Source: Nitrospira sp. (lineage in GTDB: Bacteria > Nitrospirota > Nitrospiria > Nitrospirales > Nitrospiraceae). Taken from it: DNA of 64,000 nucleotides. The position numbers and the translations under genes were made by a program. The notes under the pieces are model-generated. The model did not search any database and was not told the origin of the DNA. It was given only the letters and a program-made list of their open reading frames with translations. The DNA lies in contig CP060501.1 in assembly GCA_024760545.1 (NCBI GenBank), positions 1,711,501 to 1,775,500 on the forward strand. Reading direction: 5' to 3'. This document shows, in pieces, positions 1 through 8,050 of this stretch; positions within the stretch are counted from its first letter, which is position 1, and every line of letters begins with the position of its first letter.

Positions 1-583
1 CATGACGATAAGAAGCCGGCACCGATCGAGCGATGACGGACACGAGCGTCTCTGTAGTCTCGATGAAGCGGCGCTGTCTTTCTTGTACGATCGCTCGAGC
101 AATGCGCCGCGCATATCGCTCTTCTCCATACTGAAAAATGATGTCGGCGAGTTCGTGTTCCGGAGTGCCATTCACCAAGTCGGCGGCGGTTTGACCTGTC
201 GTTTGATCCATGCGCATATCGAGCGGGCCTTCTCGCTGAAAGCTGAACCCTCGCGAAGCATCGTTCAGCTGCGGAGACGAGACACCGAAATCGAAGAGCA
301 CACCGTCCACCGTAGAGACACCGGCTTCGACAAGATGCCGCTTCAAGTCTCGATAGTGTCCTTGGCGCAACACGATGCGTTCACCAAATCGAATCAACCG
401 CTGCCGACAGAAATCAATCGCCTGGGAATCTCTATCTAGTCCTATGACTCGTGTTCCGGCCGCACTTGATTCCAGAAGCAATTCTGCATGCCCACCATAT
501 CCCACCGTACAATCAAGAATCGTCATTGGCTGATGCGAAACGAGCCAATAAAGAACTTCCTGACTAAGTACTGGAACATGCAC
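1..583 (-). CDS. rsmH: 16S rRNA (cytosine-1402-N4)-methyltransferase RsmH, N-terminal part
   Basis: RsmH uses S-adenosylmethionine to methylate N4 of C1402 in 16S rRNA, in the cytoplasm; in most bacteria it opens the dcw division and cell-wall cluster. Reading the minus strand gives HVPVLSQEVLYWL at the start, then the SAM-binding segment ILDCTVGYGGHAE and later FDFGVSSPQL, all typical of RsmH. About 194 residues are present and the gene runs off the left edge. I chose the GTG at 583 because it puts HVPVL directly at the N terminus, as in the family; an in-frame GTG at 610 is possible but would overlap the operator boxes. No clear Shine-Dalgarno sequence precedes either codon. Confidence 0.93.
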   Translation of the reverse strand, partial: MHVPVLSQEVLYWLVSHQPMTILDCTVGYGGHAELLLESSAAGTRVIGLDRDSQAIDFCRQRLIRFGERIVLRQGHYRDLKRHLVEAGVSTVDGVLFDFGVSSPQLNDASRGFSFQREGPLDMRMDQTTGQTAADLVNGTPEHELADIIFQYGEERYARRIARAIVQERQRRFIETTETLVSVIARSVPASYRH

Positions 584-604
584 GAATTCATTAACAATAC
601 TTTC

Positions 605-629
605 ACCCACTCATTACCACTTTCGCCCA
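605..629 (-). promoter_or_regulatory. Three direct TGG-boxes with 10-bp period (probable MraZ operator)
   Basis: On the minus strand TGGGC (629-625), TGGTA (619-615) and TGGGT (609-605) follow each other with exactly 5-nt spacers. The MraZ regulator of the dcw cluster is known to bind TGGGN direct repeats with 5-nt spacers. The boxes lie just downstream of the rsmH promoter -10, where a bound protein would block initiation. The middle box deviates at the fourth base. Confidence 0.8.
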
Positions 630-639
630 CACCTAGCGA

Positions 640-667
640 AGTATACTCTCGCCTTTGTGGTTGTCAA
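640..667 (-). promoter_or_regulatory. sigma70-type promoter of rsmH
   Basis: A perfect -35 TTGACA (667-662) is separated by 16 nt from a -10 TATACT (645-640) on the minus strand, pointing at rsmH. The predicted transcript starts near 633, so the three TGG boxes fall at and just after the start site, about 50 nt ahead of the coding region. Confidence 0.85.
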
Positions 668-710
668 CAGTATTTTCAGTAACTTAGAGAGTTCTCACAT
701 GATTATATCG

Positions 711-739
711 TTGACAAACCCAAAGTGATTTAGTAGAGT
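711..739 (+). promoter_or_regulatory. Promoter of the IS1595-type transposase
   Basis: TTGACA (711-716), a 17-nt spacer and TAGAGT (734-739) precede the transposase start at 769. A purine-rich AAAGGGG (755-761) just upstream of the ATG can serve as ribosome binding site. The region between this promoter and the divergent rsmH promoter is only about 45 bp. Confidence 0.6.
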
Positions 740-768
740 ATCACTCATCACACGAAAGGGGTCAGAAA

Positions 769-1647
769 ATGAGTGAAAATCTATTGGTCGGCAAACATCT
801 CAGCGATGAAAAAGCGGCCTATGATTACCTGGCGAAACTGCGCTGGCCGGAAGGTCCAAAGTGTGTGCATTGTGGCGCTGAAAAAGTCTACAAATTGAAC
901 GTCGCAAATGTGAAGCGGACCGTCCTGAAGTGTGGCAAATGCCGCAAGCAATTCTCAGCGACAGTCGGAACAATCTTTGAGGATTCACATATCCCACTCA
1001 CCAAGTGGTTTATGGCGATGCAGTTGGTCTGCTCAAGCAAGAAAGGCATGAGCGCCCATCAACTCCACAGAATGCTTAAGGTGACGTACAAGAGCGCATG
1101 GTTCATGGAGCATCGTATCCGCTATATGATGACTCATTCGCCGTTCTCAGGAAAGCTGGGCGGCATTGTCGAAGCCGATGAAACGTACATTGGTGGCAAA
1201 GAGAAGCGTGCAACGGGCCGATCTAAGAAAACCGCTGTCTTTGCGCTTGTACAGCGACAAGGCCATGTTCGCTCATTCGTGGTACATCGTGTGACGAGCA
1301 AGAATCTGAGAGAGATTATCCGAGAGAATGTAACACCTGAAACACGGATGATGACCGATGAGTATCACGGCTATCGTGGGCTTAAGAAAGAATTTGCCAG
1401 CCATGAGACAGTTAACCACTCGCGTGGGCATTATGTGCGCGGAGAGGTTACGACAAATACTATTGAAGGCTATTTCAGCTTACTAAAGCGAGGATTGAAC
1501 GGGACTTATCATCACGTGTCGAAGCATCACCTGCATCGATACTTGGCCGAGTTTGATTTCCGCTACAACGCGAGAACTGAGGATGATGCGACCCGTGCGA
1601 TGATGGCCTTGAAAGGCGCTGAAGGTAAGCGCCTGATGTACAAATGA
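769..1647 (+). CDS. IS1595-family (ISXO2-like) transposase
   Basis: This 292-residue protein is a transposase of the IS1595 type. It has an N-terminal zinc ribbon (C32-x2-C35 and C55-x2-C58) followed by the ISXO2-like catalytic domain with the acidic triad D137 (EADETY), D197 (MTDEYHGY) and E233 (NTIEGYFSLLKRG). The length is normal for the family and the frame is intact. It sits immediately upstream of and divergent from rsmH. A convergent small ORF starts 4 bp after its stop. I found no clear left terminal inverted repeat, so the element limits are uncertain and it may no longer be mobile. It is more AT-rich than the neighbouring genes, consistent with transfer. Confidence 0.93.
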   Translation: MSENLLVGKHLSDEKAAYDYLAKLRWPEGPKCVHCGAEKVYKLNVANVKRTVLKCGKCRKQFSATVGTIFEDSHIPLTKWFMAMQLVCSSKKGMSAHQLHRMLKVTYKSAWFMEHRIRYMMTHSPFSGKLGGIVEADETYIGGKEKRATGRSKKTAVFALVQRQGHVRSFVVHRVTSKNLREIIRENVTPETRMMTDEYHGYRGLKKEFASHETVNHSRGHYVRGEVTTNTIEGYFSLLKRGLNGTYHHVSKHHLHRYLAEFDFRYNARTEDDATRAMMALKGAEGKRLMYK

Positions 1648-1651
1648 CTCG

Positions 1652-1810
1652 TTAAGAGGCCTTCCGTGAAGACTTCGATGAAGACTTGGGCTTCAAACCT
1701 TTCTTGGTGACTCGCTTCGCAGGCAGCGGTACGGAAACGGCGAGCTTAAGAGCCTGCTCAAAGGTCATGGGATGCAGAGAGAGCGGCTTTTCCTTCGGCA
1801 TAAGGCCCAT
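1652..1810 (-). CDS. Small basic protein (52 aa) next to the transposase
   Basis: An ORF of 52 codons on the minus strand, ATG at 1810 to TAA at 1652, converges on the transposase gene with 4 bp between the two stops. The product begins MGLMPKEKPLSLHPMTF, continues with a leucine-rich EQALKLAV helix and ends in a Lys/Ser/Arg-rich tail (about residues 31-52). I recall similar short SLHP(L/M)TFEEAL proteins beside IS1595-type transposases, but cannot confirm this here. It may be a passenger gene of the insertion sequence, and the basic tail could bind nucleic acid. The function is unknown. Confidence 0.5.
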   Translation of the reverse strand: MGLMPKEKPLSLHPMTFEQALKLAVSVPLPAKRVTKKGLKPKSSSKSSRKAS

Positions 1811-1870
1811 TCTACACCCCCTTGCCAAACTTTAAAAACCATGTAATACTTAAACCACTTTCTCCCACTG

Positions 1871-2104
1871 TGGGGTCAGTGGTGGTTAAACACCCCGCTC
1901 TAGCATTACCGCTTGATCACGAATGGTAAGCTAGGGATTGGTCGTCGGATCGGGCCGCGTTCAGGGCGCGGCCTTTTCCTCAGCTTCCCTTTACTATCCA
2001 TTTTCCCCACCCCCTTTCAGTTAAAGTGAACCCGCCTGCAGAGGTTCACTAAAACTTACTCAGAAATGGGAAACTCAGCTAAAACAGGGGCACCACTGAC
2101 CCCA
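1871..2104. repeat. 234-bp segment bounded by perfect 14-bp inverted repeats
   Basis: TGGGGTCAGTGGTG at 1871-1884 is repeated exactly in inverted orientation at 2091-2104. The segment between holds no long ORF. It contains a GC-rich terminator-like hairpin (1953-1977) and an 8-bp inverted repeat AGTGAACC/GGTTCACT (2025-2032 and 2043-2050). It could be a MITE-like derivative, or the right end of the adjacent IS1595-type element followed by a nested copy. The matching left end upstream of 769 was not found. Confidence 0.6.
1953..1977 (+). terminator. Rho-independent terminator-like hairpin
   Basis: GGCCGCG (1953-1959) pairs with CGCGGCC (1967-1973) across a 7-nt loop and is followed by TTTT (1974-1977). 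It lies inside the inverted-repeat-bounded segment and would stop transcripts coming from the transposase side. Confidence 0.55.
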
Positions 2105-2250
2105 TCCCGTGCATACCATCATGCCTTTGATTTCGTCAAGGAATCCGCTTTGATTTCAAGTGGATATGAAAAAGAGGACAGATAGCGTACGAGTGAAATA
2201 GCGATTCTGTCAAGGAATCGAACTGCGCAAGTCATTAATAAGCTCAGCAT

Positions 2251-2895
2251 CTAACATTTACAGGTCTCCAATCTTTCAAGCTGCAATTTAGTCAGTTCCT
2301 CAATCTCTCCCGCCAGCATAAGGGCTGCATCTACAATAAATGGCCGTGTCAGAAGCCGAAGAGGACTTACCTCTGCCTTCGGCTCATCGGCTGAGTAAAA
2401 ATGCGGCTTAGCAGTCTCAATCTTTTCACGGATGCGAGAGGCAAGACGTTCTCGAAGCTCATCTGATGTCATTAATGCCTCAACTCTGATCGTCTCGAAC
2501 TGCATCCAAGCTCTATAGTTTTCTTCGTTAATGCGATTTCTGTATTGTTCATCTGTAATCTGGCCTTGCAATTTCTCATTGCGCCTGGAATCTATGTGCT
2601 TATGATTAATCTCCACGATATATCTAATCCGCTCCACTAACCGGTTTGCTTTGAATTTCAATTCTGAATTCGTCAGTTCTAGCAAGGGAGTCTTAGCAGA
2701 TGGTATAGCCATGCCTGCAGCTATTTTCAGACGCTCCATCCGTTCATTTTGGCTGCTTACCCTATCATCGAGATACCATTTCATGCAGACCCCACCAACC
2801 AAAAAGCCAATAATAAGAAGGCTCAATCCGGCGAGAGGTGATTTTTTCATCGCCTCCCATCCTTCTCCAACAAACAGCCGCCACAATTCAGCCAT
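2251..2895 (-). CDS. Hypothetical membrane-anchored coiled-coil protein
   Basis: This 214-residue protein is of unknown function. It has a short cytoplasmic N terminus, one transmembrane helix (about residues 20-41, LAGLSLLIIGFLVGGVCM), then a charged, largely helical region (about 50-175) rich in Glu, Arg and Lys with likely coiled coil, and a C-terminal helix. The ATG at 2895 is preceded by AAAGGAG at a good distance. Base composition is AT-richer than the neighbours, as with the nearby transposase, so it may belong to an acquired segment. I recognise no family. Confidence 0.65.
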   Translation of the reverse strand: MAELWRLFVGEGWEAMKKSPLAGLSLLIIGFLVGGVCMKWYLDDRVSSQNERMERLKIAAGMAIPSAKTPLLELTNSELKFKANRLVERIRYIVEINHKHIDSRRNEKLQGQITDEQYRNRINEENYRAWMQFETIRVEALMTSDELRERLASRIREKIETAKPHFYSADEPKAEVSPLRLLTRPFIVDAALMLAGEIEELTKLQLERLETCKC

Positions 2896-3198
2896 GTCCC
2901 ACTCCTTTGAAAGAGGCCGCTAGGATAGCCTGGCCTATTCCAGCCTGTCACCCACCTAAGTGGGCGAAAGTGGGAACTGATATATCCTATGTACATGGGT
3001 TTGTCATGTATATAATCATCAGTTCTCATCTATCTGGGCTATCAGGAGATATTGAGAAGTCATGGGAGGGGCAACTTTCGATCATTTTGCCCTTCTCCAT
3101 ACGGTTGTGCATGGTCTTCGTGGGAACCGAAATCTTTTCGGCCCTCCAACTCTTGAGGTTTCGTTGACTTCCAAGGACTTGAGTTAGAAAATGCTTTC

Positions 3199-4299
3199 AT
3201 GCATACGCAACGTTCAACCATCCCACTTGCAGGCCTCTTCTTTTTCATTCTCTTGCTCTCTGGTCTCGAGCAGACCGGGGCGAAGGACTTCAATCCCGAC
3301 AATCCCCTCAACCAACCGGCTCCCGTCTATTGGTGCCCGGGCAAGACATCCGACCAACAAATTTCAACGAAGAAAAGCTCAGACTGTCAACCGCTGTACG
3401 ACCAGGAGACAGTAGAGGCTTTTCGAGAAAGCGCGCGAAAGCGCGGCTTCGATCTTCCGGAACGCGATCCCATAAAAATCGTTGAATTGCAGAATGCCGC
3501 ATCGAAATTTTCAGACCGCTATCGAACGTTCCTCTCCTGCTGCATGACGGGCAACGATGCGCCGGGACACATCATTGACTTGATCGATGAAGCGAACCAC
3601 ATCCTACAAGCCGTTCAGCAAAAGGGTATCTACAATTCGACAGGGTTTGGGAAGGGACAAGGGGCCACTGTCGCCGGCCCCGGAAATGGCACGGGTAATG
3701 GAGGGCTCGGCGGTGGTGCTGGCGTGGCTCCCAAGCTTGGAACGTTCGCTCGTCAATTCACGCTCGGTGAAATTGTCGGGACAGTTGCACGCGCGCGTGA
3801 GGACCTGTTTCGACTCAAGACGCGCTTGGACACATTGAACGAGGCACAAGAGAGTCTCAGCGGGGTCGACTATGAAAGCAGCGGCCGGGTCAAAGTGAAA
3901 ATCCAAGAGGAGGAAGAAGCGATCAGGAGAGAGTTTCAGGCCAAGAAGCCGCCGTCATCGGCTCCGACAGGAATGGAAATTCAAGACACGACCCTGCGCT
4001 CACGAATCGGAGGGGACATCGAGGACACCAAGTTGAATTCCCAGTTCGGAGCAGACATCAATTCTGCCGTTTCCCCGTACAGCAGAGTCAGTGAATCACT
4101 CCGACCGCGTCGAGGCAATGATATTCATGACAGCAACCTTCCGCACCGACCGGGAACGGATATACAGGATACGGTCGTCCCCAACAGCACCGGTTTCGAG
4201 GTCGACAAATCGCAAAACTACGAAGGAACCTCGACCGTTCCACGCCGAGGAGTCGGCGCCTCGATTGGAGATTCCGATCTGAACAGCAGACGGCGGTAA
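3199..4299 (+). CDS. Hypothetical secreted protein with C-terminal repeats
   Basis: This 366-residue protein is not recognised. It starts with a signal peptide (hydrophobic core LAGLFFFILLLSGL, likely cleavage near residue 28). A Cys-containing domain follows (WCPG, SDC, SCCM within residues 45-115), then a Gly-rich linker (about 158-180) and a helical segment (about 190-250). The C-terminal third carries degenerate repeats of the form DI-x-DT-x-L-x-SR-x-G (for example near residues 257-335). The repeats and linker suggest an extracytoplasmic structural or binding role. The start has only a weak ribosome binding site. It converges on the BNR-repeat gene with 8 bp between the stops. Confidence 0.7.
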   Translation: MHTQRSTIPLAGLFFFILLLSGLEQTGAKDFNPDNPLNQPAPVYWCPGKTSDQQISTKKSSDCQPLYDQETVEAFRESARKRGFDLPERDPIKIVELQNAASKFSDRYRTFLSCCMTGNDAPGHIIDLIDEANHILQAVQQKGIYNSTGFGKGQGATVAGPGNGTGNGGLGGGAGVAPKLGTFARQFTLGEIVGTVARAREDLFRLKTRLDTLNEAQESLSGVDYESSGRVKVKIQEEEEAIRREFQAKKPPSSAPTGMEIQDTTLRSRIGGDIEDTKLNSQFGADINSAVSPYSRVSESLRPRRGNDIHDSNLPHRPGTDIQDTVVPNSTGFEVDKSQNYEGTSTVPRRGVGASIGDSDLNSRRR

Positions 4300-5341: not shown

Positions 5342-5839
5342 CTAGCGATAGTTCGTAAACTGCAGATCGATCTCAAAATCCTTGCTCTTCAAAAAGGCGA
5401 TCGCCGACTGCAGATCGTCCTTGCTCTTACTCAGCACCCGCACTTGCTCGCCCTGGATCTGCGCTTGGACTTTCAACTTCGAATCCTTGACCGCCTTGGT
5501 GATTTCCTTCGCTTTGTCTGATGCCAATCCGCTCTGAATCTTGGCCGTTTGCCGCACCGTCCCACTCAACGCCGGCTCGATCGCACCTTGAGTGAAGGCC
5601 TTCAGCGACACCCCGCGTTTCACACACTTGGCCTTGACGATCTCCTGCACCGCTTTCAGCTTGTACTCGTCGTCCGAGACCACGACCAACTCCTTTTCCT
5701 TCTCTTTCAGCGTGATCTCGGTCTTCGAGTCCTTGAAATCGAACCGCTGCTTGATTTCCTTCGTCGCCTGATCCAGCGCGTTCTTCAGCTCCTGCATATT
5801 CACTTCCGACACGACATCAAATGAAAACTGATCAGCCAT
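5342..5839 (-). CDS. yajQ: YajQ family cyclic-di-GMP/nucleotide-binding protein
   Basis: The 165-residue product matches YajQ over its full length: it begins MADQFSFDVVSEVNMQELKNAL, contains the characteristic QRFDFKDSKTEI and CVKRGVS segments and ends in QFTNYR. YajQ proteins are cytoplasmic, with two RRM-like folds, and in some bacteria bind cyclic di-GMP and act with transcription factors. The ATG at 5839 follows an AAGGGG motif. It appears to be the third gene of a minus-strand run cstA - small ORF - yajQ - BNR lipoprotein. The several PilZ genes in the window make a c-di-GMP link plausible, but that is inference. Confidence 0.95.
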   Translation of the reverse strand: MADQFSFDVVSEVNMQELKNALDQATKEIKQRFDFKDSKTEITLKEKEKELVVVSDDEYKLKAVQEIVKAKCVKRGVSLKAFTQGAIEPALSGTVRQTAKIQSGLASDKAKEITKAVKDSKLKVQAQIQGEQVRVLSKSKDDLQSAIAFLKSKDFEIDLQFTNYR

Positions 5840-6050
5840 GTGTCAACCCCTTATCTTTCAGTTTGTGCCCGATCCTACGGATGTTCAAAAGGCCGCCGTT
5901 TTTACCCGCCCAACCCCAGCGCGCCAAGACGCGCCGTTCCACGAGCAAGACCGCAGCAAGCGAAAAGGCGAGGCATACGTCGTTTGGTATGTTGAGCCCT
6001 TGAGCCATGCGAGAACGCAGCTGGAGCCCTTTTTCAACATCCGTCAGCAA
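5832..6050 (-). CDS. Possible small protein bridging cstA and yajQ (72 aa)
   Basis: A TTG-initiated ORF overlaps the cstA stop (TTGCTGA) and ends 8 nt inside the yajQ start region, so it exactly fills the gap between the two genes with overlaps at both ends. The product is basic with one hydrophobic stretch (about residues 27-37, CLAFSLAAVLL). It does not resemble the YbdD-type partner often found next to CstA. The tidy overlaps argue for a real coupled gene; the TTG start and lack of a known family argue against. Confidence 0.35.
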   Translation of the reverse strand: MLTDVEKGLQLRSRMAQGLNIPNDVCLAFSLAAVLLVERRVLARWGWAGKNGGLLNIRRIGHKLKDKGLTHG

Positions 6051-8050
6051 CAGCCCGTCCCATGCGGCAACTTAAACCCTTTCTCAGCATCACAATGAAT
6101 TGCCGCCTGCATTCGTCCTGCCGATCCTCCACCCGCCGACACCACCACCTCGCTGCTCGTGAACGGCTTTTTCAGCACGACATAGCCGTACCACTGCCTC
6201 AGACTATCGCTCAAGACAATCACACCCAGCACCGCCACCAGCGCCACCAGCACGGCATCCAGATAGAGCGCGAAGGCCTGCCCGGCCGCCAACGTCGCCG
6301 CTTTCTTCAAGAACATCCAAAACATCTCATAGGAACCGGTCAAAGTGATCATGCCCACAAACAGCATCGGCAGCGCCGTGACCCAGAGATAGGGCGCCTT
6401 CCACATTTTGATCAGCACGGTCGTCCCGATGCAGAGGGCCAACATACCCAGCAGCTGGTTTGCCGCACCGAACATCGGCCAAATGGTTGAAATGCTGCCC
6501 GTCCCGATCAAATACGCCCACGCTCCCACGACTAAGCCGCTGCTCACCATCACACCAGGCACCCAGTTCATCCGGCGAAAGGGCGCATAGACCTTGCCTG
6601 CCATTTCCTGGATGAGATAACGAGCCACGCGTGTGCCCGTATCAATTGTTGTCAGAATGAAGAGCGCTTCGAACACCAACGCGAACTGATACCAATAGGC
6701 CATGAGACCTGACATGCCGGGCAGCGCCGAAAAAATAGACGCCATGCCGACCGCCAATGAAACCGCGCCGCCCGGACGTCCCGCCACATCGACTTCCACC
6801 AATTGTGACAGCTCGGCAATCCGCGCTGGAGCAAACCCCATGGCCGCCAGCGTATCGGCGCTTAACGTTGTGTTGATCGCCAAGTAATCGCCGGGAATCA
6901 GCACTGAAGCTGCGATCAATGCCATCACCCCCACAAAGCTTTCCAGCAGCATTGCCGCATACCCCACCACCGCTTGAGATTCCTGCTCGATCATCTTCGG
7001 CGTCGTGCCGGAGGAGACCAACGAGTGAAAGCCCGAGATGGCCCCGCACGCAATCGTGATGAAGAGAAAAGGGAAGAGGGTACCGGGAATAATCGGGCCA
7101 CCGCCGGCGGCAAAACTCGTGACACGCGGCATCTCGATCGTCGGCGCCATGAGGATAACGCCAACCCCCAGCAGAAACACGACGCCGAGTTTCATAAATG
7201 TCGAGAGATAGCCGCGCGGCACCAGCAACATCCAGCCCGGCAATACCGAGGCCAGAAATCCATACCCGGCGAGCAGCCAGATCAGCGCGGGCTTGTCGAA
7301 CTCGAAGAGCCAGGCGTAGGGCGACTGCGCAACGACGCGTCCGAACAGCACCGCTACGATCAAAAGTACGACACCGATGATCGACACTTCGGCCACGGCG
7401 CCGGCACGAAACTTCTGGAGATAGAAGCCCATGAGGAAGCCGATCGGAATCGTCATCGCAATCGTAAAGGTTCCCCAGGCATTATGGTACAGCGCATTCA
7501 CGACCGCGAAGCCCAACCCTGCCAGTGCCACCACCACAATAAAGAGCACCGCGATCGCCGTCGCCGTGCCGGTGAGCGAGCCGAGTTCATCGTGCGCGAT
7601 CTCGGGCAACGAGCGGCCGTTCCGTCGCATGGAGGCAACCAGAATGATAAAATCCTGCACTGCCCCCGCAAGCACGGCACCGATCACGAGCCACAGAAAA
7701 CCGGGCATGAATCCAAATTGTGCCGCCAACACCGGACCAAGGAGCGGCCCGGCTCCGGCGATGGCCGCAAAGTGATGGCCGAAGAGCACGACCTTATTCG
7801 TGGGATGAAAATTGACGCCGTCGTTTAACCGCACCGCCGGCGTGACGTGCTGATTGTTCAGTACGACAACTTGCGTGGCCAACCACCGTCCATAGAACCG
7901 ATAGGCCAGCACATACATGCAGGCAGCCGCCACGACCAGCCAGAGACCATTGACCTTTTCATGGGGATTGATGGCGCCCGTCACATGAGCAAGCGCCAAG
8001 GCGCCGAGGAGCGAGAGCAGCACCCAGAGCAGATTTACCGCCGCCTTCAT
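6044..8050 (-). CDS. cstA: Carbon starvation protein CstA family transporter
   Basis: CstA proteins are inner-membrane transporters linked to peptide or pyruvate uptake. This product (668 aa from the ATG at 8050) has many hydrophobic helices and family signatures NKVVLFGHHFAAIAGAGPLLGPVLAAQ (from about residue 85), FHSLVSSGTTPKMI and ANQLLG. I chose the ATG at 8050 (MKAAVNLLW) because the first membrane helix follows directly; the open frame extends to 8101 but lacks typical content there. A glutathione-S-transferase remnant begins divergently right upstream. The C terminus ends in a Gly-Cys-Cys sequence. Downstream genes follow closely on the same strand. Confidence 0.93.
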   Translation of the reverse strand: MKAAVNLLWVLLSLLGALALAHVTGAINPHEKVNGLWLVVAAACMYVLAYRFYGRWLATQVVVLNNQHVTPAVRLNDGVNFHPTNKVVLFGHHFAAIAGAGPLLGPVLAAQFGFMPGFLWLVIGAVLAGAVQDFIILVASMRRNGRSLPEIAHDELGSLTGTATAIAVLFIVVVALAGLGFAVVNALYHNAWGTFTIAMTIPIGFLMGFYLQKFRAGAVAEVSIIGVVLLIVAVLFGRVVAQSPYAWLFEFDKPALIWLLAGYGFLASVLPGWMLLVPRGYLSTFMKLGVVFLLGVGVILMAPTIEMPRVTSFAAGGGPIIPGTLFPFLFITIACGAISGFHSLVSSGTTPKMIEQESQAVVGYAAMLLESFVGVMALIAASVLIPGDYLAINTTLSADTLAAMGFAPARIAELSQLVEVDVAGRPGGAVSLAVGMASIFSALPGMSGLMAYWYQFALVFEALFILTTIDTGTRVARYLIQEMAGKVYAPFRRMNWVPGVMVSSGLVVGAWAYLIGTGSISTIWPMFGAANQLLGMLALCIGTTVLIKMWKAPYLWVTALPMLFVGMITLTGSYEMFWMFLKKAATLAAGQAFALYLDAVLVALVAVLGVIVLSDSLRQWYGYVVLKKPFTSSEVVVSAGGGSAGRMQAAIHCDAEKGFKLPHGTGCC

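Follow-up and report, generated by a model that had tools for sequence, protein, structure and literature searches.

In this Nitrospira genome, the dcw cluster has very probably kept its operator for the cell-division regulator MraZ in front of rsmH, and MraZ, made from a relocated and now distant mraZ, would act on it in trans, likely limiting transcription. From the sequence, we infer that positions 605–667 of the window (the whole 64-kb stretch of DNA analysed) form the promoter-operator of the cluster, of the MraZ type and presumably bound by MraZ (Table 1).

Table 1. Features at the rsmH end of the window and the basis of their assignment
Feature	Position	Strand	Basis
rsmH (mraW), 5' part	1..610	-	PF01795, TIGR00006; gene runs past window edge
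Predicted three-box MraZ-type operator, TGGGC-5-TGGTA-5-TGGGT	605..629	-	Sequence; array conserved across order
Sigma-70 type promoter of rsmH/dcw, TTGACA-16-TATACT	640..667	-	Sequence; conserved in genus leaders
Target-site duplication AGTTCTCA, left copy, 8 bp	690..697		Single copy at G227 empty site
IS1595-type insertion element	698..3020	+	Terminal inverted repeats ATGATTATATCGTTGACAAACCCA, 24 nt, 88%; PF12762, PF12760
Transposase gene of the IS1595-type element	769-1647		PF12762, PF12760
Target-site duplication AGTTCTCA, right copy, 8 bp	3021..3028		Single copy at G227 empty site

The promoter and the three boxes

On the minus strand, the −35 (667–662) and −10 (645–640) hexamers are separated by 16 nt, and the pattern TTGACA-N15-18-TATACT matches the 64-kb window once, at the rsmH promoter, against an expectation of 0. 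The operator begins 10 nt after the −10 hexamer and comprises TGGGC (629–625), TGGTA (619–615) and TGGGT (609–605), pentamers whose 5-nt spacers make TGG recur exactly every 10 bp; the middle one of the three reads TGGTA, not TGGG. The operator has a predicted span of about +4 to +28 and would overlap the predicted transcription start. Box 3 also overlaps the putative GTG start of rsmH (610–608), the first gene behind the operator, as the sequence-only reading had it. The genes behind rsmH, named by reading the translations of the ORFs in the neighbouring genome region, follow in the order ftsL-like gene, ftsI, murE, murF, mraY, murD, ftsW and murG.

By itself the array is not significant, because TGG-N7-TGG-N7-TGG, found once in the 64-kb window, is expected there 0.64 times; for the same reason, the argument of the sequence-only reading was suggestive rather than proof. 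The narrower pattern TGGGNNAAAGTGG has four sites in the 4.81-Mb genome.

In its build, the site has the direct repeats with a TGG/AAAGTG core and the 10-bp period of MraZ operators, and its boxes lie downstream of the −10 of a dcw cluster promoter. The feature that it lacks is adjacency to mraZ (autoregulation), the gene being 2.7 Mb away and without an array. Such adjacency is typical of MraZ operators, but it does not define a DNA site as one.

Comparison with characterized systems bears out both the likeness and the difference. In E. coli (Pmra) and Burkholderia cenocepacia (PmraBc), short TGG/GTG repeats of 10-bp period similarly lie just downstream of the −10 (PMC7761207). The B. cenocepacia MraZ repeats are 7 nt long with 3-nt spacers, and they are located downstream of the −10 and overlap the start (PMC7761207); the geometry described here is the same. 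In both species, however, the gene that directly follows the operator is mraZ, a place held here by rsmH. The Mollicutes MraZ operator is made of AAAGTG[T/G] repeats (Fisunov 2016, cited in PMC8475190), and the box sequence GAAAGTGG holds the same AAAGTG core; the Mollicutes operator is linked to mraZ, unlike the present one.

Conservation of the array in Nitrospirales

Of 64 rsmH leaders drawn from four Nitrospirales families, 59 have the array, where dinucleotide shuffles predict 0.125. It is through this leader comparison that a chance origin of the array is rejected, and not through the count in the window, which gives no significance. The boxes have thus been retained in relatives rather than lost, and the sequence-only reading was right in placing a consensus promoter and an operator of the MraZ type before rsmH. 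Throughout the leaders of the order, the array starts 8–13 nt after the −10 hexamer. Promoter (in the form TTGACAA...GAGTATACT) and array are common to all 30 genus leaders, which were the first fetched and represent the source genome and 29 relatives. Searching 59 genomes with the array pattern returned mostly one match each, nearly always in the rsmH leader, and the rsmH-leader array is the only or best match in most of the genomes searched. In the leader alignment, the columns of the boxes and of the promoter rise clearly above the flank 60–90 nt upstream, which holds 0.16 bits per column; the TGG columns are fixed in this alignment by the anchoring.

Two genomes of one genus, g9 (G058 and G048; loci L067 and L078), carry a degraded rsmH-leader array although mraZ is present, and represent a natural loss of the operator with mraZ kept, which speaks against the proposed regulation.

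The distant mraZ and its origin

The mraZ gene of the source genome is single-copy and intact, and is located at C1:4415661–4416098 (~4.416 Mb; 5659–6099 of locus L003), 2.7 Mb from the rsmH operator. Thus, of the fates that had been suggested for mraZ, a place elsewhere in the genome proved right and its loss proved wrong. The gene was also found intact in almost all relatives. Its upstream neighbours are a small HTH_17 gene and a comF-like gene, the latter named by reading. In 80 Nitrospirales records, the 700 bp before mraZ contain no three-box array; there is none before mraZ in the genus, nor in families f3 and f4, and autoregulatory boxes at mraZ are therefore rejected for these groups.

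In family f2 (L098, L100, L104, L105 and L106), TGGCA direct repeats are present just upstream of the −35 of an HTH-mraZ operon. Among the families looked at, such repeats precede mraZ in f2 only, and they could be where MraZ or the HTH protein binds.

The separation of the two genes follows the boundary of the order. In the list of matches for 158 Nitrospirota genomes, mraZ adjoins rsmH in 89 of 89 outside Nitrospirales and in 0 of 35 within it. Both genes reside on one contig in 15 of these 35 (137 kb to 2.7 Mb apart, among the matches listed) and on different assembly contigs in the other 20, which fits separation and is weaker proof of it. In linked relatives of the same class, it is mraZ that has this promoter and these boxes in front of it. 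Linked mraZ and rsmH with the operator before mraZ is the ancestral arrangement, and the simplest and most likely history is that mraZ moved out of the cluster in the ancestor of Nitrospirales and the promoter-operator remained. Because the split is seen in every tested species of the order, it is old and maintained, and not due to the insertion element that neighbours the promoter. In the library searched, no report on an unlinked mraZ in Nitrospira was found. In the Neisseriaceae that lost mraZ (PMC9395523), the dcw cluster starts without this gene, as here; there, however, mraZ is lost altogether, whereas Nitrospirales keep a highly conserved mraZ elsewhere and keep the operator as well.

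The protein itself retains two PF02381 stretches (97 bits), and D11 and R15, which belong to the DxxxR motif, do not vary among the 60 MraZ sequences compared. Within the genus, median identity is 90% for MraZ versus 70% for RsmH. Nitrospirales MraZ shares 26–31% identity with the linked MraZ of the phylum, from which its branch is separated by 2.41 changes per site, and the protein of the source genome scores 95.8 bits with TIGR00242, just short of the NCBIfam equivalog cut-off of 98.35. Being strongly diverged and below this cut-off, MraZ could have changed its DNA preference. The divergence may reflect fast change after relocation or replacement by a foreign copy. In a genome scan for an outside donor, the 80 loci listed were all Nitrospirota records.

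Proposed mode of regulation

We propose that MraZ would be made at the distant HTH-mraZ locus and would bind in trans to the three TGG boxes, which recur every 10 bp a short way downstream of the −10. Positioned over the predicted start, bound MraZ would most likely limit transcription of rsmH and of the division and wall genes through steric repression. Lacking an operator in front of it, mraZ would escape the negative feedback that MraZ usually exerts on its own gene.

The boxes could also be bound and conserved for an MraZ that serves as activator, or in a dual role, rather than as repressor. In Neisseria elongata, deletion of mraZ lowers dcw transcripts and its ectopic overexpression raises them (PMC9395523), so that the sign of regulation could be activation. 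We consider this unlikely for Nitrospirales: the position of the array, downstream of the −10 and across the predicted start, is typical of repression, and MraZ acts as a repressor in E. coli and M. genitalium (PMC8475190).

Still less probable, and in our view improbable by a wide margin, is that the array is a relic, or a ribosome-binding or start-codon sequence, instead of an operator. Such a reading would suit the source genome, where boxes 1 and 2 fall in a short leader and box 3 overlaps the putative GTG start. In families f3 and f4, however, the array ends up 40–100 nt ahead of the conserved start of RsmH, with its 10-bp period kept. Boxes that persist where the gene start has shifted this far downstream are not kept for coding or for translation start, and relics would have decayed like the flanks.

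Returning to trans repression by MraZ, we would note that the M. genitalium work took MraZ repression to depend on gene, operator and cluster being linked, and that an mraZ mutant of that species was complemented in cis only (PMC8475190). We are evenly divided on the broader claim that MraZ is a trans-acting dcw regulator order-wide, diverged or replaced, HTH-partnered and free of autoregulation; if true, it would contradict this need for linkage. Since M. genitalium MraZ is reported to act only in cis, Nitrospirales offer a useful test, and a natural one, of why mraZ nearly always comes first in dcw. Should MraZ be functional while unlinked across the order, neither linkage nor autoregulation would be required for MraZ control, and its sharp divergence asks what changed when feedback was lost.

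The neighbouring insertion element

An insertion element is located ~30 bp upstream of the promoter, adjoining the regulatory unit and not part of it. It carries the DDE_Tnp_IS1595 transposase, terminal inverted repeats and 8-bp target duplication of the IS1595 type. Its proximity had led to the suggestion that it separated or removed mraZ, by splitting an mraZ-rsmH operon and leaving the operator behind in this strain only, an account with practically no chance of being right, given that G227, of the same species, has an empty site with one AGTTCTCA, flanks each about 99.86% identical and the same leader, that none of the 35 Nitrospirales compared (among the matches listed) has mraZ linked to rsmH, and that the gene past the element (3199–4299) codes for the same secreted protein as the neighbour in relatives without the element. 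The comparison with element-free relatives that had been put forward as a check was thus made, and it spoke against the element: the empty site and the order-wide split rule it out as the cause of the separation. The element, which no other genome of the genus was found to carry, was inserted recently and has no connection with mraZ.

Two more TGGGNNAAAGTGG sites occur inside the element, at 1855–1867 (minus strand) and 2961–2973 (plus strand), and form 15-nt inverted arms (14/15); together with the operator they account for three of the four genomic TGGGNNAAAGTGG sites. They may be chance, element ends or captured boxes. As to their source, a copy of the cargo was absent from 175 family genomes and from plasmids.

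In another genus of the family (G177, locus L132), a 69%-identical IS1595 transposase occupies the same intergenic gap by the rsmH promoter and may have inserted there independently. Finally, the element of the source genome contains a 234-bp stretch (1871–2104) with perfect 14-bp inverted ends TGGGGTCAGTGGTG, which resembles a small non-autonomous element lying within the larger one.
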